A stretch of 64,000 nt of DNA from Watersipora subatra. Its lineage: Eukaryota > Bryozoa > Gymnolaemata > Cheilostomatida > Watersiporidae. The notes under the pieces are model-generated. The model was not told where the DNA came from. It saw only the letters and a list, made by a program, of their open reading frames with translations, and made no database searches. This document shows, piece by piece, positions 6,814 to 61,056 of this stretch (the stretch's first letter is position 1; each line of letters opens with the position of its first letter). Position numbers and translations under genes: made by a program. The stretch covers positions 2,046,001 to 2,110,000 of the forward strand of contig NC_088711.1 of the NCBI RefSeq assembly GCF_963576615.1, read 5' to 3'.

Positions 6814-9800
6814 ATGCTAGGGTAGATAATTGGTTACTGATGTCGTCTCCGTGGCCTGTGCTTGCACTCATCAGTGCCTATCTTCTCATCAGCACTCAAG
6901 GACCAAAGGTTATGGAGAAGAAAAAGCCCTTTGACCTGCAATTGTATATGATAGCCTACAATTTTGTTCTCGTCATCTTATCAACGTATACTGCCATAGA
7001 GGTGCGGGTCCATACTATATATAGTACTAGTTTTAAGGAGTAGATACATTCTACCCCTTAAATGTTCTCTCTATTTACTGTACGCCAGACAAATCAGACT
7101 AAAACTAAGAACATGCCAACTGGTATTTTAAAAAATTTATTAGCCGATAATTGAAGACTTGCATTGGGCAGATTAGTTTGTGGAAAATGCGAACTAACCA
7201 CAAGGCTGTGACATCGACAGCCAGATACATTTGCTGAATTTTTATGCTTTTTCACTGCGATCAATCAGTTCGAATATGCTTCATTACGAATGAAACTTTT
7301 TTGTATCTTTCTCATATCTACATTTTTATTGGAATTTTTAATACACTTTCAAATCTCTCAGCAAAATAATAATATATTCATCAACATTTAACAATGTTGT
7401 CTGTGAACCTCAAAAAACAAGAATAAATGACGCACAATAGTTTGTAGACCCTTTGCTTTGCTCTTTGACAGACCTTAGACACTCTATAACCAATTTCAGA
7501 GTCAGTGTGTACCTTGACCATATCACAGCAGCTCTCTATTGCTTGCTACGTATCCATCCTGTAGCACATTTCGTGCAAAACTACCATAATTGTTCACGAT
7601 TGTGAGGAGTACGTGTTTGGAATTGGATAGGGTATTGAGGATAGGATAGGGATTGGGTATGACTTAGCACTGGTAGTATTTTTAACTGTTGATTACATAC
7701 CAGCACATGATTCTCACTGGATCAAACCAACTGCCCTATAAGTGAATCCTTACGGGTTTCTCTAGCAGAGATGGACTAGCTCTAAACTAGCAATAGTAAT
7801 TAGTAATGTCTTTGTCACGATCTTCCCTCCTCACTCACTGTCTGTTAATAATTAAATTGCAGTCTATAAAAAGTGTTTTACTCATATCTTATTGGAGTAA
7901 CAATTCCTGTCTTAATGGAAATATAAATATTGATACAGTATTTTTCACCACGAGATGTTAACAAATTAACGGTTTAAGCTCAAGAAGTGTGTTTCTATAG
8001 ATGTGCAGCTGGGAAGAGAAGTGTGTTTCTATAGATGTGCAGCTGGGCAGAGAAGTGTGTTTCTATAGATGTGCAACTGGGCAGAGAAGTGTGTTTCTAT
8101 AGATGTGCAACTGGGCAGAGAAGTGTGTTTCTATAGATGTGCAACTGGGCAGAGAAGTGTTTTTATAGATGTGCAACTGGGCAGAGAAGTGTGTTTCTAT
8201 AGATGTGCAACTGGGTAGAGAAGTGTGTTTCTATAGATGTGCAACTGGGAAGAGAAGTGTGTTTCTATAGATGTGCAACTGGGCAGAGAAGTGTGTTTCT
8301 ATAGATGTGCAACTGGGCAGAGAAGTGTGTTTCTATAGATGTGCAACTGGGCAGAGAAGTGTGTTTCTATAGATGTGCAACTGGGTAGAGAAGTGTGTTT
8401 CTATAGATGTGCAACTGGGAAGAGAAGTGTGTTTCTATAGATGTGCAACTGGGCAGAGAAGTGTGTTTCTATAGATGTGCAACTGGGAAGAGGTGTGTTT
8501 CTATAGATGTGCAACTGGGTAGAGAAGTGTGTTTCTATAGATGTGCAACTTGGCAGAGAAGTGTGTTTCTATAGATGTGCAACTTGGCAGAGAAGTGTGT
8601 TTCTCTAGATGTGCAACTGGGCAGAGAAGTGTGTTTCTATAGATGTGCAACTGGGTATGCTTACCAACTCATGCAAATATATATGATTTCATGTCTTATG
8701 TAAATATGCCTACCGATTTATCACCAATCAGAGGCATATTGGATTTTGCCCTTAATGAATAGTTGTAGATCATTAGGCTGCTTACCTTCTATAATCTATG
8801 ACCTGGTGCTGCCAGTTGTCTTAGAGCTAGGTTTGAATCCTGTGCATCACTGTTATTTCCATGAATAACTATATAGCTCGTCACATCTAAGCTTCATTCA
8901 TCTAGTGAGAACCAGGGCTTCCAAAATTTTTGAATATTTAAATTTTTAGCTTTCAACAGTGCTTGTTTTAATTTCAGCTTTTTTAACTATGTGAGATAAA
9001 TAAGATAACTCCATAAACTTCTGGAAATCAACTCTGTATATATATGGATGAAGCAACTCCAACAAATAGCAGTCCATGTTAGGATAAGTATTTTTATAGA
9101 ATGTGGAATAAGGAGAAGTCTTTTATTATTTGTTACAGGTATTCATAGCCACGTTTCTCAACCCTCAGTTCAACGGGCCGGCATGCGCCCCCGTAGATTA
9201 TTCAAACAACCCGAGTAGCATGCGAGTAAGTTACTTATATGAGATTTCTGACCGTCTGCCTTTCCTTCTCATTCGCTTTATTTGGTTACCTAGTCTCTGA
9301 CTATATCTTGTTAATTTGGATTTCATTGCAGCTGCTGTCCATATGTTGGTTGTACTTAATCACCAAGTGTATTCACCTCTCCGAAACTGTAAGTATATGT
9401 ACTCACTCAATAATATTTAGTTTAGTCTTAATCTGTACTAGTACATGCCTCGTTTTCTTCTTGTTGCATTGATGCCTTCTTTCAGCGCTCTATATGTGAA
9501 AACAGTTGACTATATAATTCGCTCTCCGTAACCATACGCGTGCATCATGTGACTCGTCTGTCGTATGGATACTCTTGGACTCTATATGATCTCCATAAAT
9601 ATTTTTCAATTTCATTCAGTTGTAAGCATTGATACGCGATGAGAATTTAATTACCAGTAAAATAAATGTTAAAAACCAGTTGTTCGTTTGTGGCGACCTC
9701 TAGGACGTCTAGGTAGTCAACAGTAACGTTAGAACTTCATATGGGGAGGTAATTCTTCAACATGCAGTGGCCACAGTGCTTCAACATGCAGTGGCAACAG

Positions 9801-12800
9801 TGCTCCGACATCAGGCAAACATACACTTTAGTTATTGAGTGTTTCAGCAGATTTGATGCTGAAACAGTGCAATGCTGATTTGTATTACAGAGTCTGTGCA
9901 TATTGGTGCAAACGGGCAAGAGGTAGCAACTCCAACTAAAATCACCTCTTGCATCGAAAGTTATATAACTGTGATATTTTTTTCAATGTCTATTTTTTGC
10001 TTCACCTCAGTCTATACAACGCTTGCTTTAGCCAGGCACACAGAAGGATGTTCATGCTCATAGTTGTATTTCTAGTTTGGCACATGGTTATGTGTTCACT
10101 CTTATGGCCGCGTCTCTAGCTAGGTACATAGTGGATGTCTATGCTTACGCTTGTGTCTATAAATAGCAACAGTGTTGGATTGTTAACTTATCCGGTTTAT
10201 GAAGTCTTTGTCTTGATGATTATTGAGTTAAAGGATTAACAAGGCTGGAAAAGTGCTTGTATATAGGGTGTCTACACTTTGAATACAAAATGAGTTTTCA
10301 TTGAGCAGATCTTAACATAGGCAGTCTAATACTGGTGGTCTTAATTTGTTGTTTCATGTCCAGCTAGTTGACTGGCCAGGACATGAGCTGAATTGTGCAG
10401 GAATTGTGTGATATTGCATGTGATATTGTGTGATGTCAGTTGCCCTTGCATGTTGTATAGCGCATACACTATACACCCAGTTTTCCTGTTAGGCTGATGC
10501 ATTTGACTGTAGTCATTATGTTTATTCTTGTATTATTGTATTATATAGGCAGTGTTCGTGTTGAGAAAGAAGAACAGTCAAATTAGCTTTTTACACGTGT
10601 ATCACCATGCAAGCATGCCCATACTGTGGTGGATAACAGTGAAGCACTGCGGTGGTGGTTCAGGTAGGTAGTGGTGGATAATAGTGAAGCACTACGGGGT
10701 TGGTTCAGGTAGGTGGTGGTGGTTAACAGTAAAGCACTGCAGGAGTGGTTCAGGTAGGTGGTGGTGGATAACAGTGAAGCACTACAGGGGTGGTTCAGGT
10801 AGGTAGTGGTGGTTAACAGTAAAGCACTGCGGGGTTGGTTCAGGTAGGTAGTGGTGGATAACAGTAAAGCACTGCGGGGTTGGTTCAGGTAGGTGGTGGT
10901 GGATAACAGTGAAGCACTGCGGGGTTGGTTCAGGTAGGTAGTGGTAGATAACAGTGAAGCACTACAGGGTTGGTTCAGGTAGGTAGTGGTGGATAACAGT
11001 GAAGCACTGCAGGGGTGGTTCAGGTAGGTAGTGGTGGATAACAGTGAAGCACTACAGGAGTGGTTCAGGTAGGTAGTGGTGGATAACAGTGAAGCGCTGC
11101 GAGGGTGGTTAAGGTAGGTAGTGGTGGATAACAGTGAAGCACTGCGAAGGTGGTTCAGGTAGGTAGTGGTGGTTAACAGTAAAGCACTACAGGGGTGGTT
11201 CAGGTAGGTGGTGGTGGATAACAGTGAAGCACTGCGGGGTTGGTTCAGGTAGGTAGTGGTGGATAACAGTAAAGCACTGCGGTGGTGGTTCAGGTAGGTG
11301 GTGGTGGATAACAGTGAAGCACTGCGGTAGTGGTTAAGCTAGGTAGTGGTGGATAACAGTGAAGCACTGCGAGGGTGGTTCAGGTAGGTGGTGGTGGATA
11401 GCGATAAAGCATTACAGGGGTAGTTAAGGTAGGTGGTGGTGAATAACAGTAAAGCACTGCGGGGTTGGTTCAGGTAGGTAGTGGTGAATAACAGTGAAGC
11501 ACTACGAGGGTGGTTCAGGTAGGTGGTGGTGGATAGCGGTAAAGCACTGCAGGGGTAGTTAAGGTAGGTGGTGGTGGATAACAGTAAAGCACTGCGGGGT
11601 TGGTTCAGGTGGGTAGTGGTGGATAACAGTGAAGCACTGAGAGGGTGGTTCAGGTAGGCGGTGGTGGATAACAGTAAAGCACTATAGGGGCCATTTCAGG
11701 TAGGTAGTGGTGGATAACAGTGAAGCACTGCGAGGGTGGTTCAGGTAGGTGGTGGTGGATAACAGTGAAGCACTGCGGGGGTGGTTCAGGTAGGTGGTGG
11801 TGGATAACAGTGAAGCACTGCGGGGGTGGTTCAGGTAGGTGGTGGTGGATAACAGTGAAGCACTATAGGGGCCGGTTCGGGTAGGTAGTGGTGGATAACA
11901 GTGAAGCGCTGCGGGGGTGGTTCAGGTAGGTAGTGGTGGATAACAGTAAAGCACTGCGGGGGGATTCAGATAGATGGTGATGAATAACAGTAAAGCACTG
12001 CGGGGTTGGTTCAGGTAGGTAGTGGTGGATAACAGAGAAGCACTGCAAGTGTGGTTAAGGTAGGTAGTGGTGGATAACAGGGAAGCACTGCAAGTGTGGT
12101 TAAGGTAGGTAGTGGTGGATAACAGTGAAGCACTGCAAGGGTGGTTCGTGTAGGTGGTGGTGGATAGCGGTAAAGCACTGCAGGGGTGGTTCAGATAGGT
12201 GACAGGAAAAGCATAACATCAACTTCAGTAACATTTTGCTTGTCCAGTCCAACATGTCCTGCCCTAGTTGCAAGAATCTGGGGTCAAACATTGCAAAGAC
12301 CTGGGCACTCTGATGAGAATTTAATGCGATGAGTGAGCAGAAAAGACTGGCAGATATACTGACAAATTGTGTGCTTTTCTCAGTTTGCTGAACAGCATTA
12401 ATGCAAATTCACTGCTGTCGCTTGCTCTGGAATGTTCAGGAGTGCATAGTCACGTTTATTGCTCTTGTGTGTAGTTTTTGTACCTTTTTTGTACGCATTG
12501 TACCTTATGCGGCATCAGTTTTAGCGTCCTATCAGATGCATTAGACACCAGGATTGGAAAAAACCATGATTTTTATATTAAAAAGACCGAGTAAACTAGG
12601 TTATTTTGGTTTAAACCGTTTTTTATGGTTTATATAAATTGACCAAGCTTTTTGCAATTTCAAGTCTAATTAACATTACTTCCTATAGCTGCATGATTGA
12701 GTATTGAACATAAATATGTGGAATCATCTGTTAAAGATGGTACTGTGGGAGTTGTTATAAGAAATTAAGAGAAAAAACATGGAAATTTCAGAATGAACCT

Positions 12801-15800
12801 TTAATCAAACATGAATGAAGAAATACAGAGTAGAAATCTTATCACATAAAGTGAATATATTACATACAACGCTATGTATAAGTAGGAATTTTAATCCCAA
12901 TGATTAACTGTGTGGTACTGAAGGGCAGATCACAGTGATCTACATTTACTAAAATTGAAGCAAAAAAGTTGTAAATCCGTAAGAGTAGTAGTAGATACAA
13001 TATGTGACTGAATATGTACTTAGATATTTTGGTCATATGATACATAAATACAAGTTTCCCAGCTTTCTCTGTGCCCAGTCTATTTTTGACTTTTGAATGG
13101 ACCAACCCAAATGTTGATAATATCCGCTCAATACTAGCACTAGAGTTGATTTTTTGAAACACAAAATACTTGATAAACTGAATTCTAACAATCCAACCAC
13201 TTTGGCTTGTGCCCACTAAATGGAGTATTAGTTTAAAAGCCTAAAGCTTTTGCCCAAAAGGATGGTCAGTATTGTTTTAATATCTAATTATAAGCAATCC
13301 TTTCTCACTGGCCAGATTTGAAAAAGTTTTCATTGATTATTAGAGACAATGATGGGATTAGTATATTTCATATGGTTTTTATATATCACCAGTACAAGTA
13401 ATGGGTTCATCCTGTCACTAATGAAATAATAGAAAAAAATATTAAGAAAAAAGTAAGTTTTCAGCAATAGCGCCATAAATTTATTTTGTGCGATGCTCTC
13501 CTCAGGCGCCATTTGACTAAAACCGTCAAACCGTGCCTGAGGAGTGCATCGCTCGAAACAAATTTGTAGCGCTATTGCTGAAAATTTAATTTCTTAATAT
13601 TTTTTTCTATTATATATATTAATTAATTATATTAATGCAACTTATATATACGTGTATATACATAGGTTGCATTAATTTAATCAATTTTTTTTATTTCATT
13701 ATATATTTGAACTTTGGCATTTGGTTATTTTTGCTTACGAAATTGTAACGTTTTGAGGGACTCGATACATTATTGCCGGAATTACTTCATTTGTTTAGAC
13801 AAATGTTTGCTCAAGTGTTACGTTGTGCCTAGAGACATTGTGCCTACACTATTTGTACTTAGAGACATTGCGCCTACACTATTTGTACATAGAGACATTG
13901 TGCCTACACCATTTGTACATAGAGACATTGTGCCTACACTATTTGTACATAGAGACATTGTGCCTACACTATTTGTACCTAGAGACATTGTGCCTACACT
14001 ATTTGTACCTAGAGACATTGCGCCTACACTATTTGTACCTAGAGACATTGTGCCTACACTATTTGTACATAGAGACATTGTGCCTACACTATTTGTACAT
14101 AGAGACATTGCGCCTACACTATTTGTACATAGAGACATTGTGCCTACACCATTTGTACATAGAGACATTGTGCCTACACTATTTGTACATAGAGACATTG
14201 TGCCTACACTATTTGTACATAGAGACATTGTGCCTACACTATTTGTACATAGAGACATTGTGCCTACACTATTTGTACCTAGAGACATTGTACCTACAAT
14301 ATTTGTACCTAGAGACATTGCGCCTACACTATTTGTACCTAGAGACATTGTGCCTACACTATTTGTACCTAGAGACATTGTGCCTACACTATTTGTACAT
14401 AGAGACATTGTGCCTACAATATTTGTACCTAGAGACATTGTGCCTACACTATTTGTACATAGAGACATTGTGCCTACACTATTTGTACATAGAGACATTG
14501 TGCCTACACTATTTATACCTAGAGACGATCACAAGTCGAGGTTTGACCGTAATAAACACTAGTCAAGGTTTGATTAGTAGATGGATTTTTATTTTTCATT
14601 GCTTTCTTTGATGTATAGAATTAGGAGGCAGTTTCATATATAATTGACTGTTTAGTAAAACAGCTCCAAGGAGAAACGGTTCATTGAACATTTAAATTTT
14701 TAGTAAATTGATGAGAGCAAGTGTCAACGTGAGATTTGTTGTAGCTTATTTCCCGGTGCTTATAAACTCCAGCGTGCATGGAGTCATGTACTTCTACTAC
14801 TTGATGGCAGCGATGGGTGAGTGGACGCGCCCCTACCTCTGGTGGAAGAGATATATCACTCTAATGCAGATGGTCAGTATTATCAATCTATCTACTTTAA
14901 CAGAGAAGTTGAGAATTTAAAATAGTTTGTCTTAAGGAAACAGGCCAGGTTAATTTTATTAACCAACTAGAATACTGTCCGTATTGCAATATCCATTATG
15001 GAGTTAGGTGGTGTCAGTCTTGATCTTGCTTGTGTCAGTTACTAGGCTTGCAAAATATTAATTGCTCATACTAACAAAAAATCTATTGTCTTTGATCAAT
15101 CTCATTTGTGACACTGTTGGTATTATGATATTTGTATTAAAGTGTGTATTAGTCATACTGATCCGTTGCCTGCGGGAGTCGACCATGAAACTAGCAAGGG
15201 GTGGGACTTGGGGAAACTACAAGGAGTGGAGCTCAGTGAAACTAAGCTAGGGGTGGGACTTAGATCAACTACAAGGAGTGGAGCTCAGTGAAATTAGCAA
15301 GGGGTGGGACTTGGGGAAACTACAAGGAGTGGAGCTCAGTGAAACTAAGCTAGGGGTGGGACTTAGGTCAACTACAAGGAGTGGAGCTCAGTGAAATTAA
15401 GCTAGGGGTGGGACTTAGATCAACTACAAGGAGTGGAGCTCAGTGAAACTAAGCTAGGGGTGGGACTTAGGTCAACTACAAGGAGTGGAGCTCAGTGAAA
15501 TTAAGCTAGGGGTGGGACTTAGATCAACTACAAGGAGTGGAGCTCAGTGAAATTAAGCTAGGGGTGGGACTTGGGGAAACTACAAGGAGTGGAGCTCAGT
15601 GAAATTAAGCTAGGGGTGGGACTTAGGTCAACTACAAGGAGTGGAGCTCAGTGAAACTAAGCTAGGGGTGGGACTTAGGTCAACTACAAGGAGTGGAGCT
15701 CAGTGAAATTAAGCTAGGGGTGGGACTTAGATCAACTACAAGCAGTGGAGCTCAGTGAAACTAAGCTAGGGGTGGGACTTAGGTCAACTACAAGGAGTGG

Positions 15801-16858
15801 AGCTCAGTGAAATTAAGCTAGGGGTGGGACTTAGGTAAACTAGCAAAGGACGAATAGTCATTACCAGTCTTTGTACATTCAGGAGCCTCATCGGAAGCTG
15901 CCTGTGAATTCTGCATCCTAGTTTGTTAATTTAAGCTTTTCCATGTGAAGAGGGCCCATTTCATTAGAGCTTCTTGGGTGCTGAACAAATACAATCTTGC
16001 TTTTGGCTTGGAAACATTTAGAGCTTGTCAACAAACTTGTCAACATTTTGTGGTACAAACTTTAATATCTTGACATTTCAAGTTAATCTATTTCAATATC
16101 TGCCTTGAAATCTTCGTCTGTTGATGCAGATATTTTTATGTCTGTATACTATTACCTCTCCACATGACCTTTACAGTATTACCTCTCCACATATTCTTTA
16201 CACTATTAGTTCTCCACACAGTCATTTAAAAAGAAGATTGTATCTCATACCTAGACGCAAAAGCACTTTCAGCAGTCACCACACTTCATCTTTAGCTCAG
16301 TTTTAGTTGCAAAGTTTCGTACACATTTGTTGGTTTCCCCACAATTCCTTCCAGCCCAGGAACATTTTCCTCTCTCATGGGTGTTGCAGCTGTGCTTTCA
16401 GCTCTCTCATCCTAATAAAAGTTATCCTATACATTGGACTTGTGATGCAGCAATAATGGCTAGCGACCATAACAGTACTGTTGATGTACATTTGATTATA
16501 AGCAGTTAGTATTTAAACTTTTATTTCTATTCAAGGGTGCAACCTGCCAGCTTTAGCGCTGACTTTGCAGATTTTACCTCTGCTTTCTTTGCTCTTTGTC
16601 AAAGCACCCTCAACAGTGAAGGCCTGCATATTTGTCTGTGGCAATTACATTGCTCTGTATTTGTAGGTTCAGTTTTGGGTGGTTGCCATACACATTCTCC
16701 ACTCTATCTACCTTGACTGTGGCTACCCTAAAGGCTACCAGTGGCTCCTCGTGGCATTTCTTATAACCCAGAAGGTCCTCTTCATGAACTTCTACCTCAA
16801 GGCCTACAACAACTCCGCTGCTCGAGCATCAAAGAAAGGCAGTTCCAAGAATGAGTGA
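6814..16858 (+). CDS. Elongation of very-long-chain fatty acids protein (ELOVL family), N-terminus missing
   Basis: Condensing enzyme of the ER fatty-acid elongation cycle: it joins malonyl-CoA to a long-chain acyl-CoA. Coding exons: 6814-7001, 9139-9225, 9332-9388, 10549-10663, 14745-14872, 16667-16858 (stop TGA 16856-16858). All joins keep frame, giving about 255 residues. Visible family marks are [10 protein letters not shown] near the N-terminus, [17 protein letters not shown] with the catalytic HxxHH box (exon at 10549), [12 protein letters not shown] and [12 protein letters not shown]. Several hydrophobic segments fit a multipass ER protein, and the C-terminus is lysine-rich (SKKGSSKNE). 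The first exon here opens in phase 1, so a short upstream coding exon of perhaps 25 residues is missing. The WWI and GGG context resembles ELOVL4-type enzymes more than ELOVL2/5, which is only a tentative subclass. At exon 5, 14718 is also an in-frame acceptor, but 14745 fits the family length better. Introns carry four minisatellites. Confidence 0.95.
7983..8655. repeat. 34-bp minisatellite, ~20 copies, in elongase intron
   Basis: The unit reads GAAGTGTGTTTCTATAGATG then TGCAACTGGGCAGA, repeated about 20 times with a few internal deletions (for example near 8160 and 8490). It lies in the intron between the coding exons ending at 7001 and starting at 9139. It contains no exon sequence. Confidence 0.95.
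10625..12200. repeat. 45-bp minisatellite, ~35 copies, starting inside an elongase exon
   Basis: The unit is 45 bp (GTGGTGGATAACAGTGAAGC, then ACTGCGGGGTTGGTTCAGGTAGGTA). The first unit is the last ~39 bp of the elongase exon 10549-10663, including its splice donor CAG|GTAGGT. The remaining copies fill the start of the following intron, so the donor-like text TTCAGGTAGG recurs in most units. Reading on in frame past the true donor meets TAG at once in the first intronic unit. Minus-strand open frames across the array are repeat artefacts. Confidence 0.95.
12550..13216 (-). mobile_element. hAT transposase relic (C-terminal dimerisation region)
   Basis: A minus-strand frame at 12872-13216 contains [18 protein letters not shown] followed by a [14 protein letters not shown]-type stretch, the typical hAT-family C-terminal dimerisation motif. 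The upstream catalytic part is absent, so this is a decayed fragment. Text such as GGTTTAAACCG around 12609-12619 may belong to the same element. The outer limits are approximate. It lies in the elongase intron 10664-14744. Confidence 0.7.
13432..13620. repeat. Imperfect ~190-bp inverted repeat
   Basis: The left arm (TTTTCAGCAATAGCGCCATA and flanks, with GCGATGCTCTCCTCAGGC) pairs with a right arm that reads as its reverse complement (GCCTGAGGAGTGCATCGC ... GCGCTATTGCTGAAAA). The centre is near 13525. It looks like a small foldback transposon in the elongase intron. Confidence 0.75.
13831..14526. repeat. 30-bp minisatellite, ~23 copies, in elongase intron
   Basis: The unit AGAGACATTGTGCCTACACT followed by ATTTGTACAT is repeated about 23 times with few substitutions (CAT/CCT, TGCC/CGCC). 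Since 30 is divisible by 3, two plus-strand frames and one minus-strand frame stay open through the whole array and give repetitive peptides. The array sits inside an intron of a well-supported gene, so I regard these frames as non-coding. Confidence 0.95.
15185..15840. repeat. 52-bp minisatellite, ~12.5 copies, in elongase intron
   Basis: The unit GAAATTAAGCTAGGGGTGGG then ACTTAGATCAACTACAAGGA and GTGGAGCTCAGT recurs about 12.5 times between coding exons 14745-14872 and 16667-16858. The copies differ mainly at ACTTAGRTCA versus ACTTGGGGAA. Confidence 0.95.
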
Positions 16859-17346: not shown

Positions 17347-17689
17347 TAAGTGCTTATAGAGTGCTGCCTAGATTGAGTAACAATCATACACTGTGGTACA
17401 TTGTCTTAGCCTCAGAATGTGATATTCAGCTCACGTTTTCTCTGTCAGCCAATATGAGCAGTTGGTTGAACAATGCTTTTCTGCATATATGCCCAGGAGC
17501 TTCTGGTAGGAATCATATATAAGTAGTAGCTTTGTTCCAATGAGAGCATGATCACAGCGCTTGGTACCCTTTTTAGATAAGTAGGCCTAAGTACAGCAAA
17601 TAGCCACTGCAATTCCACTCTCCCTTGTCCGATAAATACATGTAGACAGAATTAACTGCTTTGCAGGTTGGTGAAAGTGTGAATTGGCA

Positions 17690-18170
17690 TCCCAGTGTTT
17701 ATAATTGCTGGGTGGTAAGTGTGAATTGGGACAACAGTGTTTATAATTGCTGGGTGGTAAGTGTGAATTGGGACAACAGTGTTTATAATTGCTGGTTGGT
17801 AAGTGTGAATTGGGACAAGTGTTTATAATTGCTAGTTGGTAAGTGTGAATTGGGACAACAGTGTTTATAATTGCTGGTTGGTAAGTGTGATTTGGGACAA
17901 CAGTGTTTATCATTGCTGTTTGGTAAGTGTGAATTGGGACAACAGTGTTTATAATTGCTGGTTGGTAAGTGTGAATTGAGACACCAGTGTTTATTATTGC
18001 TGGATGGTAAGTGTGAATTGGGACAACAGTGTTTATAATTGCTGGTTGGTAAGTGTGAATTGGGACAACAGTGTTTATAATTGCTGGTTGGTAAGTGTGA
18101 ATTGGGACAACAGAGTTTATAATTGCTGGTTGGTAAGTGTGAATTGGGACAACAGTGTTTATAATTGCTG
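17690..18170. repeat. 42-bp minisatellite, ~11.5 copies
   Basis: The unit AATTGGGACAACAGTGTTTA followed by TAATTGCTGGTTGGTAAGTGTG is repeated about 11.5 times just downstream of the elongase. Almost every unit carries GGTAAGTG, a perfect splice-donor-like word on the plus strand. Two minus-strand open frames across it are repeat artefacts. Confidence 0.95.
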
Positions 18171-22119: not shown

Positions 22120-23639
22120 ATGGGAGAAGAAGATACTATTGAAGGAAATGCAGCAAAAGGAAAGAAAATATTTGTTCAGAAATGTGCCCAGTGTCATACT
22201 GTGGAGAAGACTGGCAAGCATAAGACCGGTCCGAACCTGCATGGACTGATAGGAAGAAAAACCGGGCAAGCTCAAGGCTTCCAATATACGAAGGCCAATC
22301 AGGACAAGGGTGAGTTATGTATATTCTTCATGAGTACTGAAGTTTACGTTGCTCGTGTAATTTCATTCAAATAGTAGTCTGATGGTAGAATTCCTCAAGT
22401 GCTTACACTGTAGTAGGAGATGCTTTCCATCAGATGCCTGTGCCAGCTAATTCAATACAGTCATACCTCGACCAGCGAGCTTAATACGTTCTAGGGCTGA
22501 ACTCGTATGTCAGCGTACTTGTGTCTCAAGCCATTATTTCCTATATAAAATAACTAAATACAAATTAATTCATTACCATACTCTGAAAAAAACAAAACAG
22601 AATATTACAGTGGAAAAAACGTTTTTCAACTGTCGTAATTTAGTACGTACACTTAAAAAGTAACAAATACCTATTTAGTTTGTTAAAATATGCAGGTTTT
22701 TACCTTCGAGACCGAGGTAGAGGCTAACAGCGGTCAGAGAGACTTGACAGCAATATGCTCGGTACACTGAACTTTTGTGAGACTACATAACAGGAACTTT
22801 AAATTTAACTTAAATAAATTTAGCATGCTAAATACACATTTCAAGCAGCTGTTTTAATCTTTAAATTTTTTTTATCACCTCTGGTTAGGCGCTTTTTGCC
22901 TCGCATTTACTATAACAATTACTCGACCTTTTAAACATTTTTTTCAAGCTTATTTGAGGAGAAAGATCCCGCGATGCTGTTCTCAAAAGCGGTCCCTCAC
23001 ACACTTGGTCATATAGTGTCCATCGAGAACCGGCTCGTATCTCAAAGATTACTCGTATCTCAAAGAAGAACCTTGTTCAAAATGCTTTTTGTATTGCATA
23101 TATGTTGGGCCACTCGTATGTCGAGGTATGACTGTAGTCTTCTTCAATTCACCCTCATTATTATCGACATGCTTTCATCATGCTTGATTTCTTCATTCTA
23201 TTGACAATATTGGAGTATTACTGTGCCCACAAAATGATGGCAATGAAGTGCTACTTCCGTCCAAATGTTGTTCATTGAATTGTTAGCTATCTGTCGACTG
23301 AAGTGCAAAATGCTGGGATATGTGGAGTATTATTTTTTTAATATTACTTTAGCTTTTTCGCCAGAATTACGGGCTGGGACTTATGTGTAATTGGCTCATT
23401 TAGTATTGAAATACAAGTGGAATATTATGGCTTGTCTGGAAAAGTTTTGATCATGAAACAAACTTTATATGGATTGTTGATTAAATCTAGGAATTACTTG
23501 GGGCAAAGATACTCTGTGGATTTACCTTGAGAATCCGAAGAAATACATTCCTGGAACCAAGATGGTGTTTGCTGGACTAAAGAAGAAACAAGAGAAAGCA
23601 GACCTGATAGCTTATCTGAAGTCAGCATCCGCTAAGTAG
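22120..23639 (+). CDS. Cytochrome c (mitochondrial electron carrier), complete, two exons
   Basis: Small haem protein of the mitochondrial intermembrane space. It carries electrons from complex III to cytochrome oxidase and also triggers apoptosome assembly. Exons: 22120-22309 and 23491-23639 (stop TAG). The joined frame gives 112 residues, normal for an animal cytochrome c with a slightly longer N-terminus ([18 protein letters not shown]). The haem-attachment CAQCH box, [14 protein letters not shown], the WGKDTLW segment and the axial methionine in PGTKMVFAG are all present. The ATG at 22120 sits in AAAATGG, a good initiation context. The single intron splits the glycine codon after KANQDK, the position also used in vertebrate somatic cytochrome c genes. 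The intron contains a 677-bp transposon. A hexamer AATAAA at 24146-24151 could end the transcript. Nothing suggests a processed pseudogene. Confidence 0.97.
22458..23134. mobile_element. pogo/Tigger-like inverted-repeat element, 677 bp, in cytochrome c intron
   Basis: Left end CAGTCATACCTCGACCAGCG and the reverse complement of the right end (CAGTCATACCTCGACATACG) match. TA flanks both sides (22456-22457 and 23135-23136). The word CTCGTATSTC occurs repeatedly inside both ends, and ATACGTTCT lies about 30 bp from the left end. It is closely related in design to the element at 4321-5571. No transposase is present. Confidence 0.88.
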
Positions 23640-46800: not shown

Positions 46801-49800
46801 TCTACAATCAAAACACAGCGCTGCAAAACTCTTGATGATACGCTAGAAGAAAAGCGATGTATGTAAGTGAACGCAAATTCATTGTTTAGTATAAATGAGA
46901 ATAAAACCCACATGAGTGAAAAGGGAAGTAGAGCTGGTACCCCCTGCCTTTTGAAGTAGGGTCTTGGCTAATTCGAACATAAAATGAGCAAATGCTTCAC
47001 TAGGTTGGTTGGGCTCAGTGGGAGTCATTTTAGTCTTCCCCTTCCCTCTACAACAGACAGCTGTTAGCATGTACTGATACAAGGGAACTCTCTACAACAG
47101 ACAGCTGCTAGCGTGTACTGATACAAGGGAACTCCCTACAACAGACAGCTGCTAGCGTGTACTGATACAAGGGGACTCTCTACAACAGACAGCTGCTAGC
47201 ATGTACTGATACAAAGGAACTCTCTACAACAGACAGCTGCTAGCATGTACTGATACAAGGGAACTCTCTACAACAGACAGCTGCTAGCGTGTACTGATAC
47301 AAGGGAACTCTCTACAACAGACAGCTGTTAGCATGTACTGATACAAGGGGACTCTCTACAACAGACAGCTGCTAGCGTGTACTGATACAAAGGAACTCTC
47401 TACAACAGACAGCTGCTAGCATGTACTGATACAAGGGAACTCTCTACAACAGACAGCTGTTAGCGTGTACTGATACAAGGGGACTCTCTACAACAGACAG
47501 CTGTTAGCGTGTACTGATACAAGGGAACTCCCTACAACAGACAGCTGTTAGAATGTACTGATGCAAGGGAACTCCCTACAACAGACAGCTGTTAGCATGT
47601 ACTGATACAAGGGAACTCTCTACAACAGACAGCTGCTAGCATGTACTGATACAAGGGAACACAAGTGAGTTCCGTAGTCATTCATTTATTAAAGAAGGAA
47701 AAGGAAAGGGGATACCAACCGGAATGGGTAGCTCTTCATAGACCTAGGTTCTACATTGTATTGATATCTAAGAGATGGGCTATCAGTGTTGCGGGTTCGT
47801 TGCGGTCTCGGCATAGAACTACCCGAACCAACAGAGTCACTACTTCGGCCGCTGCTCTCGCTGTCACTACCCGCCCCACCAGACATGTGCTTGGCAAATG
47901 AACGCCTCACAACAGTTGGAGAGTTGTCACTCGAAGTTGTTTCGGGGGCGCTGCTGTCAACAGCTGCCATGCCTAGACAGAATACATAGCTGTTAACATT
48001 CAGGCTATAGAGATTAACACTCGGGCTATAGAGATTAATTCTCAAGCTACAAAATTAATAATTACATTCGGAAGATGCTATTAGACAGGCTTAGAGTTGG
48101 CACCTACCTACAGAAGGCCGCTTTGACCGGCCATAGAGGCCACACCTCAACTTGGCCTCGAGCATCTTGCAGTCCAAGTCATCTTCTCGCCTTTCCTCCA
48201 GTGAATTGCTGCCACAAATGAATACCGAGCTGAACCCCAGTTGAATAGTACTACTTTAATCTAGTTTAGTGATAGCAATACATAGAAAACAACTTGAAGC
48301 CGATGCTGAAATCACACATAACTTGTATAAAAAAGCTATTTACAAAAGCAAGCTACCTATAAGAGAGAGCATGTATCTGTAAGAAGAAGCTATCTGTGTG
48401 ACAAAGCTACCTGTATAACAGAGTTATCCACACAACAAAACATGCAAAGTAAAATCATCAAAAATTGTCCTTAAAAAATTACATATAGTAAAAACTCCAC
48501 AGCAACCTTATTAAAAAAGCATTGGCCGAACAAACATATTGGATGATCATTGTACTAACAAACTAAATATTAGTTAGTGAGTTTTTGACATGCGATGTAA
48601 GTACTCCCTCTTTCACATCCCTCGTCCAATACCGATAATGGTTTACATACCTGGTTGGACGCGTGGCACGATAGACTCTGGGCCTCACCACGTTGTCTCC
48701 CCTTAGCTCACCCAAGGTCATGCTCACAAAACCGCTGCTTACTGCTGTGATGTCTGCCTGTCTGCTGCTAGCTCTTCCGGAGCTGACACCCGCACCTGGT
48801 GTCAGATAGCTGCTAATGGGTGGTGCCTTGAACAACTGATGTATGCTTTTGTCCAGCAGCTTCTCTAGAATCTAAAAGAATACTATGATACATGTAATAT
48901 AGAAAAGCACTAATTAAGGGCTGCTGGAATAAATGGCTGAATGAGTTGTGCGGTCAAATGTTCAACTACATGCAGATGAATCAGACTGACCTTGTCTAGT
49001 TTATACTGATCCTCTTTATATTGGACCAGCAAGGAGATGGCCAGGTCACCTTTTTGCCGCCTTGTTCCCTCACATATGAGGGGATGCTGCGCCTCCGATA
49101 TGTTCGCTTTGAGCCCGAGTGCAGCGACAGCGGCGTCAAACCCAAGCTGTTCATCAGTAGGCAGTCTGGAACTGTAAACCTGAACAGACCGGCTAGGAGG
49201 TCTACTGTTGACAGCCGAGGCTCCACCACCATTGCTCTGAGCTGTAATCATCACAGGATAAAGATTAACCAGCATTAGCTACATACACAGTATGAAATGA
49301 CACGGAGTGAACATGAGAAAAACGACGCACTGCAGTTCGAACAACAGCTAGTGGCCATGCCATACCAGGTAGTGATAGCGACTCAAATATGAAAGTGGTA
49401 AGCATAAGCGGCAGGTATGCTTCTCCGCGAGACATGAGGTTACCATCACGAATCTGTTCAGCTCTCTCACGAAGCACACCCAGCTCTGCAGGACCGAGAG
49501 GAATACGCTTGAGAAGGCCCACCAACTCACTTTCTTGGTTGGCTAATTTCACCTGAAAAACAAGTCAGCCATTTGCCAAACATCAAGTGGACTAGCCAAT
49601 AGCTTGCCATAATACTCCTTATCAAAGCCAAATAAGGCATGCTAGGTCAATCCCTATATACAATAAGCCACTGGTCTGTTCATATGCATTGACCCAGCTG
49701 TAAGATATACAGTACTTGTTACTAATAAAAGGTAGGTGACTTGTGGATTGGGGTGGGTGCTAATAAGGTTAGGGATGGTTGAGGAGTTGGCCAGAAGCCC

Positions 49801-58800: not shown

Positions 58801-61056
58801 CAGGTTGCCGACCTGGATGAATACTTCTTGCTCTTACCTCGTGGACATCGCAGAGTACACACCTGCATTTCATAAGAGATAATAAACCAAATAAACAGCA
58901 ATCTAATCTATGTCTGATCCTGTTAGTAAATGATAATTACTAACTACTGACGGACACAACAGTGCCGGTTGGCCAAAGATTTGTGCTCGTAAAGGCGTTT
59001 TTGTTCCTTTTTTAAAAACAGATATATTATTCTCGTAAGTAGCTGCGGTCACTTCAACCTCAATTTCCAGACCTCCCTGAATGATTGGTGATCTTCTAAG
59101 AATGACATCTACCACCCTGGCAATCATTGTTCTTCGGTGTATGATGAAAAATCTCTCTCTCACACTAAAACAAATAATGAAGCGGTAGGGATGGAAAAAA
59201 TAAGTATTGCGTTTTACCAAAGAACCAAAGTAAAATTCAACTAATTCAGTAAATGAAAAAACTCATTACTTACCACAAGTTGTTGGCTTATCAAAGGCCT
59301 CCTAAGCGATGAATATTCGTGAAAACCTCTGGACGCAGCAAAAATTGTTCACCGTAGCTTAGCATGATCGCCTCGCAGTTGTAAGCTAAATATAACCGGA
59401 ACACGCGGTGTGGGCATGCGTAGGAATAACTCTATTACTAGCCGCAATAGAGTTAACTTTCCCTAGAGAGTGGCAGTTTTCAGCCGCGAATAAATCCATC
59501 CGCGAATATGCATAAAAAGACAATTTCCGCGAAATATAACTCCGCGAATAAATTCATCCTGTAGGGTAATAGTATATCAAGTTATAGTATATATCAAGTA
59601 ATAGTATATCAAGTAATAGTATATCAAGTAATAGTATATCAAGTTACAGTATATCAAGTTATAGTATATCAAGTTATAGTATATCAAGTTATAGTATATC
59701 AAGTTATAGTATATCAAGTTATAGTATATTAAGTCATAGCGCATCAAGTTACAGTATATCAAGTTATAGCAATCAAGTTATAGTATATCAAGTAATAGGA
59801 TATCAAGTTATAGTATATCAAGTTATAGTATATCAAGTTATAGTGTATCAAGTTACAGTATATCAAGTTATAGCAATCAAGTTATAGTATATCAAGTTAT
59901 AGTATATCAAGTTATAGTATATCAAGTGGAAGAAAGAAAAGCGAAGAAAATAACAAGAGCAGTTTATATATGAAGTAAAAAAAGCTGAAGTGCTAAATTC
60001 AAATGGAAAAATGTATAAAAATGGCGGCCAACAAAAGTGCTCTGATCTCGGATTCACGCATTTACAAATGATCAGTTTGGACATCGCAATTCGGACGTCT
60101 ATGTTTTGCCAAAACATGATATTTTTATATTATAGCTTAGAGCTTGCATTACGAGCATTTTTTACTTCACAACTGGTTTTTGTTCTTCTAACATCAAAAT
60201 CATTGCGAAAAAATGAAATATCTTGATTATCTTATTATAAATAAGCGTAATTTTAAAATGCTGTCAATTAACCTTTAATAATAAAAGATGCACTTGTTAA
60301 TTTACCATAAAAATGTGGACAGAAACGCAAGCTCGCTACGAGTAGGTTCTATGGTAAAATGAGTGATAAAAACACGGCGGCACACATTACTATAACATAC
60401 AGTACGTTCAATAGAGTGTAAATTAGCTGCATTTTCATATGTTTCATTCCATGCCCATGTTTTATCAGCTATTGTCCCTTTTCCTAGCAAAATTACTGGA
60501 AACTTCAAAGTTCATATATTGGAAACTAAATCATCTGGTGTAACAATTATTTGCTCCAACTTTATGTCGTATGTCAAACATTTATCTGCGGTGATCCTAA
60601 ATCGAGGACTACATTCTTATTCCAGCTATGACATGACTACTACCCTATCAGACAAGCTAAGAATGCTGGTATGCTCTATGTAACCATTAAGGTGGAGGAG
60701 TTCATAAAACTCTCCTAAGGGTTGCTAGGAATCAGTCCATAATAGTCTGTGGTCATCTAGAAGACGTCTTGGCTACTTCAACTCTGAGAAACTAATGTTA
60801 TCAGAATTTTCCAATGACAGTTGAATACCACTAGATTGGGATGCTCTGCGGCTCACCATTCAGCTAGACTAGAGCAATTGAAGTACAATTCTAACCTGTT
60901 CGCATTGCAGCATTTCATCAGTGAGAATTTCAAGCAGCGGTACAGCATTACTGTCTCGCCGGTGAAGCAGCTCCTTGACTATAGAGAGAAGGTTCCAAAT
61001 GCCCTCCGGTTCCCTACCCCTGAGAGGCCGCAGAAGGCTCTGGTATTCAGCAGCTG
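37685..61056 (-). CDS. ZSWIM8: ZSWIM8 orthologue (Cullin-3 E3 substrate receptor), C-terminal ~1,380 codons in 22 exons
   Basis: ZSWIM8 (EBAX-1 in worms, Dora in flies) is a cullin-RING substrate receptor that marks Argonaute bound to extensively paired targets, causing microRNA decay. Exons in transcript order: 60896-61056, 55205-55435, 54359-54598, 54022-54207, 51760-52041, 50572-50695, 50280-50464, 49366-49552, 48991-49241, 48651-48871, 48108-48208, 47720-47972, 46912-47047, 46657-46801, 43874-44118, 43343-43558, 42049-42300, 41718-41879, 41332-41497, 41025-41217, 40849-40936, 37685-37810. Phases agree throughout. Diagnostic blocks: LLRPLRGREPEGIWNLLSIV, SLCDEIVTLWRLVALNP, ALHAHGY, QHLAFKIGMYGLEMHRDP, GFDAAVAALGLKANISEAQH, DSSAPETTSSDNSPTV, NQPSEAFAHFMFELAKTLL, NWLSRTYSSHVSWITG, DRASRGRDPNMVRAAAELAL and DDIKWLLSLAIKLG. 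The N-terminal BC-box, Cullin box and SWIM finger lie outside the window. The exact 5' edge of the first listed exon and the 47720/47047 junction have close alternatives. Confidence 0.96.
38058..38166. repeat. 32-bp tandem repeat, ~3.3 copies
   Basis: The unit GCATGCCCTACACCGAGTCC then AGATACTGTTTA is repeated about three times inside the last ZSWIM8 intron. Confidence 0.85.
39263..40383. mobile_element. pogo/Tigger-like inverted-repeat element, 1.12 kb, copy A
   Basis: Both ends read CAGTCAAACATGGATAACTC in opposite orientation, with TA on each side (39261-39262, 40384-40385). Near the ends the word TAAYTCGAAC is iterated, and GTCCGTTCCC lies inside the right end. The centre has a perfect hairpin (TTCCGACGTTGATTC pairs with GAATCAACGTCGGAA) and a long imperfect palindrome with CGCCACGCACATACAAAAC. 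There is no transposase. Copy B at 62619-63743 is nearly identical. It lies in the ZSWIM8 intron 37811-40848. Confidence 0.93.
44202..44342. repeat. 46-bp tandem repeat, 3 copies
   Basis: The unit CATGGGTGGAGCATATCGGT then GATAACCGATCTCAAGTCAAAATAAA occurs three times in a ZSWIM8 intron. Each unit contains the short palindrome ATCGGTGATAACCGAT. Confidence 0.85.
44484..46480. mobile_element. TTAA-flanked inverted-repeat element, with a second element nested in it
   Basis: Begins TTAA-AAGTTGACTTGC and ends GCAAGTCAACTT-TTAA, matching the copy at 30131-31008 along both arms and through the middle (for example GATGCTCGCTACTTTACAGT). Its right arm is split at 45352-46444 by another element. Without that insert it would be about 0.9 kb. 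It lies in the ZSWIM8 intron between exons 46657-46801 and 43874-44118. Confidence 0.88.
45354..46442. mobile_element. Nested TA-flanked element, 1.09 kb (CCGTACTTTTCGGACTATA ends)
   Basis: Left end CCGTACTTTTCGGACTATAA and right end TAGTCTGAAAAGTACGG are inverted copies. Subterminal text CACACCCYTATATAAGCCGC is shared by both ends. TA is duplicated at 45352-45353 and 46443-46444; the intact host copy reads CAAATAACTGTAATG at this site, so the insertion point is known exactly. The interior has several palindromes (AAGCCGATATATCGGCTT twice and GCCTAACGGAACAGTACCGTTAGGC in two halves). No transposase is present. Confidence 0.92.
47048..47662. repeat. 44-bp minisatellite, ~14 copies, abutting a ZSWIM8 3' splice site
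   Basis: The unit CTCTCTACAACAGACAGCTG then CTAGCGTGTACTGATACAAGGGAA is repeated about 14 times. On the ZSWIM8 (minus) strand each unit contains CAGCTGTCTGTTGTAG|AG, the pyrimidine tract and AG of the acceptor of exon 46912-47047. The first unit is that acceptor itself, so the array multiplies a 3' splice site through the upstream intron. Confidence 0.93.
48209..48650 (-). other. ZSWIM8 intron, nothing recognised
   Basis: AT-rich intron between exons 48651-48871 and 48108-48208. A few AAGCTATCTGT-like words recur loosely near 48340-48420, but no repeat or element can be defined. Confidence 0.5.
51540..51754. repeat. Dispersed repeat ending beside a ZSWIM8 splice donor
   Basis: The text from TACGTCTATGTTTTGCCAAAA to TTTTAAAATGCTGTCAGTTG recurs at 60088-60270. 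The repeat ends about 6 bp inside the intron that follows exon 51760-52041. The junction itself is the palindrome GTCAGTTGAAAGTCAACTGAC on the minus strand. The other end of the element was not located. Confidence 0.65.
52114..53894. mobile_element. pogo/Tigger-like inverted-repeat element, 1.78 kb, host of a nested hAT
   Basis: Ends CAGTGGAACCTCAGTTCTCG on both sides in inverted orientation, flanked by TA (52112-52113, 53895-53896). The word GGTCGAAAACCGAG and relatives are iterated at both ends, with AATCCGTTCC about 30 bp in. An hAT element (52725-53703) interrupts it; without that it is about 0.8 kb. A second partial end (CAGTGAAACCTCGGAA) lies just left at 52094. It is located in a ZSWIM8 intron. 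Confidence 0.9.
52725..53703 (-). mobile_element. Non-autonomous hAT element with transposase relic
   Basis: A perfect 8-bp target duplication ATAACAAC (52717-52724 and 53704-53711) flanks ends TAGAGATGCCCTGATTCTAA and, reverse-complemented, TTAGAGTTGCCCCGATTCTAA less one base; short inverted repeats and an 8-bp duplication are hAT hallmarks. On the minus strand at about 53145-53230 a fragment reads AYRYLACLPSSLASECFFSL, the C-terminal dimerisation motif of hAT transposases, then ends in a stop. The catalytic RNase-H region is gone. Confidence 0.9.
55480..55511. repeat. Left fragment of a 15-bp minisatellite
   Basis: Two units (CAGCATATCAAGTAACAGTA, TATCAAGTA) match the long array at 59567-59930. 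The 4-kb element at 55512-59566 separates the two parts. Confidence 0.8.
55800..58564 (+). pseudogene. Decayed Gypsy/Ty3-type LTR retrotransposon pol (RT, RNase H, integrase)
   Basis: Order of domains: the start of reverse transcriptase (55802-56062), central RT fingers/palm (56064-56345), the end of RT with the SDD catalytic text, RNase H and the integrase zinc finger (56345-57745), then the integrase core and C-terminus (57746-58564). Visible landmarks are GLREKVEHKLQELV, FSKLDLKWGFHQIQ, LNKEKCKFGVSEMEFLGH, RRYSQTEKEGLGLVWACERF, TDHQPLL, the HEGH...CKSCHGC zinc ligands, SADFLGPLP, KTDNGPQF and NGEVERQN. The frame is broken by a shift near 56056 and another near 56345, and by in-frame stops at 57743-57745 and 58418-58420. 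Gag, protease and recognisable LTRs are missing at the left, so it is a dead 5'-truncated copy. Confidence 0.92.
58903..59220 (-). other. 105-codon minus-strand frame inside the 4-kb element, unrecognised
   Basis: I do not recognise this frame. It has a non-random look (ARVVDVILRRSPIIQGGLEI followed by EVEVTAATYENN), vaguely like the end of an RRM-type fold, and it lies between the pol relic and the right end of the element. It could be a captured host exon, part of the element, or chance. Confidence 0.25.
59567..59930. repeat. 15-bp minisatellite, ~23 copies
   Basis: The unit AGTTATAGTATATCA is tandemly repeated with minor variants (AGTAATAG, AGTTACAG, one ATAGCAATCA form). Minus-strand open frames of the IYYNLIYYN type are artefacts. 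The array continues to the left of the 4-kb element at 55480-55511. Confidence 0.92.
60088..60270. repeat. Second copy of the 51540-51754 dispersed repeat
   Basis: From CGTCTATGTTTTGCCAAAAC to TTTTAAAATGCTGTCAATTA the sequence parallels 51565-51748 with substitutions and small gaps. The end reads AATTAACCTTTAA, resembling the TTAA-terminated families. Confidence 0.6.

Follow-up and report, generated by a model that had tools for sequence, protein, structure and literature searches.

The ELOVL gene and its host intron

The window, as we refer to the whole stretch of DNA analysed here, is 64 kb long (C4:2046001-2110000) and comes from a 784 Mb assembly of 239 contigs. Its plus strand carries an ELOVL gene (Pfam ELO), downstream of which lies a cytochrome c gene in two exons (22122-23639; Pfam Cytochrom_C, 1.2e-15), and no known RNA families were found in the window at gathering scores. 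The presence of several ELO paralogues points to an animal genome. COX1 had no match in the assembly, cytochrome c was of no use in placing the organism, and the molluscan haemocyanin domain matched neither this assembly nor the controls, which makes that result uninformative. A genome-wide search for ELO gave in-window matches at 6837-7043, 10552-10764 and 14726-14896, and the protein joined from 10549-10663, 14745-14872 and the last exon matched Pfam ELO at 5e-38. Translation of the joined exons demonstrated that the junction from 10663 to 14745 preserves the reading frame, and on sequence homology the exon end is fixed at 10663. The 115-nt exon is flanked by introns of 1160 and 4081 nt, the second of which hosts a long minisatellite. 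The features of this region are:

10549-10663, plus strand: ELOVL exon (AVFVLRKK...HVYHH...), 115 nt, ending in phase 1; matches Pfam ELO and stays in frame at the junction
10626-12200, plus strand: 45-bp minisatellite of 35 units, unit 0 being the exon end and donor and units 1-34 intronic; TRF and unit alignment
10661-10669, plus strand: true 5' splice site CAG/GTAGGT; reading frame and homology once the exons are joined, and the strongest predicted U1 pairing among the six donors of the gene
10664-14744, plus strand: host intron, 4081 nt, phase 1; position common to the paralogues L022 and L013
10669-10671, plus strand: in-frame TAG, met by any transcript spliced from a later donor; translation
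11301-11345, plus strand: unit 15, donor GT changed to CT; unit alignment
11933-11976, plus strand: unit 29, donor GT changed to AT; unit alignment
12157-12200, plus strand: unit 34, last and shortened, donor GT changed to AT; unit alignment
14745-14872, plus strand: next ELOVL exon, preceded by TTGTTGTAG; Pfam ELO match

Structure of the 45-bp array

TRF reports the array with period 45, 35.0 copies, 87% matches and a score of 2257, in agreement with the preliminary description, which had counted about 35 copies and taken the exon end plus its donor as the first unit. Unit 0 (10626-10670) consists of the 38 final exon bases followed by seven intron bases, GTAGGTA, and the array consensus is the same as this unit at 44 of 45 positions, with one base different. 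Most units retain a donor, as had been proposed from the letters: GT is kept in 32 of all 35 units (31 of the 34 intronic ones), the three losses being in units 15, 29 and 34, whilst the exact CAGGTAGGT, identical over nine bases, is present in 23/35 units overall and 22/34 intronic units. The TAG likewise lies in frame ahead of every later donor, and whilst a 45-bp step does keep the frame, that point is made irrelevant in this allele by the TAG. The claim that the array fills the intron was wrong, as it covers just 10664-12200 of 10664-14744 and ends ~2.5 kb short of the used acceptor.

Mean pairwise identity between units is 0.87, with three identical pairs, and the commonest departure from the consensus is G-to-A (62 of 123). 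Units further 3' in the array are only weakly more divergent (Spearman 0.31, P 0.07). Local homogenisation of the array was rejected, as unit identity does not drop with distance. A dispersed repeat was also ruled out: an assembly search with the unit, which may skip common words, listed 20 matches, all of them within the ELOVL locus.

Donor strength and splice-site choice

Pairing of the true donor with the 5' end of U1 has a predicted duplex energy of -13.4, whereas the remaining five donors in the gene model range from -5.6 to -10.0, and at a threshold of -13.4 none of the 3997 GT sites on the plus strand of the window outside the array is as strong. Within the array, the predicted U1 pairing of 12 intronic decoys equals or surpasses that of the true donor. 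RNA structure that hides the decoys was considered and rejected, as the true donor ranks only 30th of 35 in openness in predicted local folding. In human minigenes that had 365-nt flanking introns and carried the donor CAG/guaagu twice, splicing was reported to take place only at the upstream copy, and strength-matched transcriptome data also lean upstream under exon definition, whereas without strength matching the downstream donor was preferred in about 60% of events (PMC9225289). Given the long flanking introns, the upstream-only use in minigenes and the lack of help from RNA structure, we infer that the true ELOVL donor is selected by its position, an exon-definition rule taken from human data. 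For the same reasons (the long introns and the minigene result), of the two functional guesses in the preliminary description, a strongly preferred first donor appears better supported than decoys that lower output.

Similar arrays at other exons

The genome was searched for donor triplets whose starts lie 29-59 bases apart, arrays being taken from the matches listed, and each array was examined for a 5' edge at an exon end, as at ELOVL (a structure termed a "mirage" in amphioxus, see below). Triplets of MAGGTRAGT gave 2213 matches vs. 257 for the reversed pattern (matches, not arrays), and of four listed arrays one begins at the end of a DNMT1 exon and a second at another open frame, whilst the other two do not. 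Triplets of CAGGTAGGT gave 183 matches, with at least 30 arrays on C1-C3 besides ELOVL among the matches listed; the upstream flank was read for 29 of these and the 5' edge was visible in 27, 11 of which start at the point where an open frame on the sense strand meets a donor. For CAGGTGAGT there were 353 matches and at least 22 arrays among those listed; 20 were read, 19 had a visible edge and nine of the 19 qualified. In total, 22 of 50 other donor-bearing arrays with a readable 5' edge seem to begin where an exon ends. Translations were judged by eye for these calls, and in 15 of the 22 the support comes from the reading frame only. Homology backs the remaining seven exons:

DNMT1 exon, 25-bp unit: PDB match, 1.6e-14
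ADP-ribose pyrophosphatase/TRPM2-like exon: match, 6.3e-12
CUB domain exon (L077): Pfam, 7.6e-7
hydantoinase B/oxoprolinase exon: 3e-10 vs. plasmid records, no match in PDB or Pfam
axonemal dynein heavy chain exon: match, 4.9e-25
BTB_2 exon (L108): Pfam, 6.7e-10
GPR158-like receptor exon: 4.8e-4; Pfam 2e-5, below the curated cut-off

A Pfam scan of 17 exon pieces of the 22 (those with no other support or confirmed only elsewhere) returned significant matches for the L077 CUB and L108 BTB_2 pieces and none for the other 15, the L113 match falling below the curated cut-off. In a PDB search L088 and L090 had no match and L092 matched only a designed helical repeat protein. Open reading frames at 43 array edges were longer than those at antisense flank positions (medians 33 vs. 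23 aa, P = 0.0006; for L073 and L088 the edge was placed manually at the donor of the exon itself, which lies upstream of the TRF edge). Single calls may nevertheless be wrong, because open frames of at least 35 aa also occur at 25% of null positions in the antisense flank and 33% in the sense flank of non-mirage loci. No exon was called at 28 of the 50 arrays, including L109, whose edge is open for 114 aa without a Pfam match. In L106, L095 and L091 the exon contributes very little to the unit (3, 5 and 6 nt, respectively), so for these no more than a start at an exon end can be claimed.

In 21 of 23 mirages including ELOVL (12/14 plus 9/9; the exceptions are L078 and L079), one or more decoys are predicted to match or exceed the true donor in U1 pairing, a figure valid for those genes only, as strong decoys were the basis on which they were picked. 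Position rather than strength therefore probably selects the donor in them. In three of 14 mirages (L072, L090 and L092) the unit length is a multiple of 3 and the frame stays open for 60 codons, and later donors in these could add peptide repeats.

Minisatellite density and donor enrichment

Arrays of CAGGTAGGT with at least three copies outnumber those of the reversed motif by 28 to 4 on C1, C2 and C3 to 66.57 Mb, the control arrays being compared by count alone and two of the four being TGGA simple repeats. Single copies genome-wide number 4587 vs. 2769, a 1.66-fold ratio, and given this ratio the binomial P is 0.0017 for 28/32 and 0.0004 for 25/27 when simple repeats are removed. Part of the excess is expected, because real donors sit in introns, where arrays are tolerated. 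Minisatellites make up 12% of the window. Their share is 24% in 16 ELO loci elsewhere, which were left after 12 of 28 loci had been set aside because they overlapped, were near-identical or lay in the window. With arrays so abundant, some must hit donors. That minisatellites in this lineage preferentially arise or survive at 5' splice sites, mirages being a genome-wide class, is a tentative idea that we regard as rather doubtful; if true, mirages could be seeded by a process linked to nascent RNA at donors, such as R-loops on the G-rich strand.

The window holds seven more minisatellites with at least 12 copies (1105-2980, 7983-8655, 13823-14526, 15186-15842, 17661-18170, 47046-47660 and 59569-59927), three of which sit in ELOVL introns. 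The one at 17661-18170, downstream of ELOVL, is a 42-bp array whose units carry the donor-like GGTAAGTG, and no exon was noticed at its edge. Three ELO loci elsewhere (L014, L030 and L032) have a similar 25-bp array within about 150 bases past the matched exon, without overlapping it. Six others (L020, L021, L023, L024, L034 and L035, on C1 near 51.58 and 51.71 Mb) belong to two ELO copies that are nearly identical, contain stops and lie ~129 kb apart; they probably reflect a pseudogene that was duplicated recently.

Origin of the array and alternative explanations

Two ELO paralogues have open exons at the corresponding border, which reads GGTTGCG/GTAAGT...TAG/CCTATTTC in L022 and GGCTGCT/GTAAGT...TAG/CATTCTTT in L013. 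Both have an intron at the same position and in the same phase (1) as in ELOVL, and neither border has an array. The intron thus predates the array, which was copied from an old border, and the exon of a conserved protein is the source of the repeat. Changes in the intronic copies are spread roughly evenly over the three positions of a codon (30 changes over 13 columns, 41 over 12 and 32 over 13), which speaks against coding use and suggests copies free of coding constraint. Of 45 nine-column windows, 11 match the donor window in conservation. The donors therefore appear neither strongly removed nor specially kept, which speaks against clear selection on them. The proposal that the array grew from the exon-intron border thus stands on the conserved ELO exon, the array-free intron of the paralogues and the non-coding copies, whilst slippage or unequal exchange is still a presumed mechanism.

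We consider it probable that the ELOVL array is a mirage derived from a duplicated border segment, that the first donor is still used, that the copies are near-neutral and that the structure recurs at other exons. The sequence shows the origin: a short stretch across the 5' splice site that opens the old ELOVL intron was duplicated in tandem, and its copies multiplied into the intron, presumably by slippage or unequal exchange. Exon definition would pair the 3' splice site ahead of the exon with the closest 5' splice site, so that the near-identical donors downstream would be skipped, and occasional use of a later donor would lead into the TAG, yielding a truncated frame probably removed by NMD. 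The copies would otherwise act as near-neutral intron sequence, and the same kind of event is likely to have occurred at other exons of this genome. What argues against strictly upstream splicing is that decoys can be used, as reported for human IFI6 (PMC4526556).

IFI6 is also the precedent for an alternative that we judge unlikely, in which the decoy donors compete measurably, some transcripts take the TAG and are destroyed, and ELOVL output depends on array length. The 22 nine-base matches to the true donor, the 12 decoys of equal or stronger U1 pairing and the stop behind every later choice are all consistent with such competition, but the donors bear no sign of selective loss and exon definition favours the upstream one. 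An assembly artefact is very improbable: arrays are hard to assemble, yet the units here differ among themselves, with only three identical pairs, and similar structures recur at other genes. We give equally little credence to a positive role for the copies, such as U1 binding that shields the intron from premature polyadenylation; the strong predicted U1 pairing over 1.5 kb would fit, but the donor columns are not specially conserved and two paralogues do without the array. Finally, that the array created the intron, coding repeats having turned intronic through AG/GT use (a Rogers-type gain, proposed for mirages in PMC3087553), is barely credible even though CAG/GTAGGT supplies both AG and GT in each unit, as gain by AGGT tandem duplication predicts that the paralogues lack the intron, whereas L022 and L013 share its position and phase without an array at the border, which contradicts it, and the array stops far short of the acceptor in use.

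Comparison with known systems

Each mirage is a natural experiment, in which many donors are nearly the same in sequence and local context and position is the main difference. In a mirage-rich genome, ordinary RNA-seq would be enough to measure the proximity rule of exon definition in gene after gene, and such a genome would show how far introns tolerate strong decoys and whether array length tunes expression. No genome-wide set of mirages was found in open-licence PMC text, and what is added here to the known cases is scale, with the 22 further arrays all in one genome.

Minisatellites across exon-intron borders were named mirages in amphioxus, where they are described in Adh3 and the globins BflGb6 and BflGb9, and from the Adh3 data and globin RT-PCR the authors state that regular splicing seems undisturbed by them (PMC3087553); mirages are also cited for TnC and PGBD5 (PMC3902484). 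Unstable length, varying among haplotypes or cells, is a further trait of mirages. The ELOVL array shares two of their properties, with a unit that spans the border (38 exon and seven intron bases) and a splice signal in the copies (GT in 31/34 intronic units), and resembles the amphioxus cases as a border-spanning tandem array in an otherwise ordinary gene. It differs in its 35 units, compared with three and six in the two haplotypes of BflGb6, in its 45-bp unit, compared with 150-160 bp there and 10-72 bp in Adh3, in copying the 5' splice site only, and in the gene and organism concerned.

A second parallel lies in human IFI6 (6-16), whose minisatellite with multiple splice donors was reportedly described by Turri in 1995. 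There, too, minisatellite units supply 5' splice sites beside an exon, and two downstream repeat units are reported as donors (PMC4526556), whereas at ELOVL each later donor would meet the TAG. Human segmental duplications likewise contain tandem repeats of minisatellite size across exon-intron boundaries, with 27 intron modifications reported (PMC2812944), but these are tied to new introns or alternative forms in recent paralogues, whilst ELOVL keeps an old intron. The ELOVL array is thus a long, clean member of the mirage kind already described, a kind which may reach beyond the cephalochordates.
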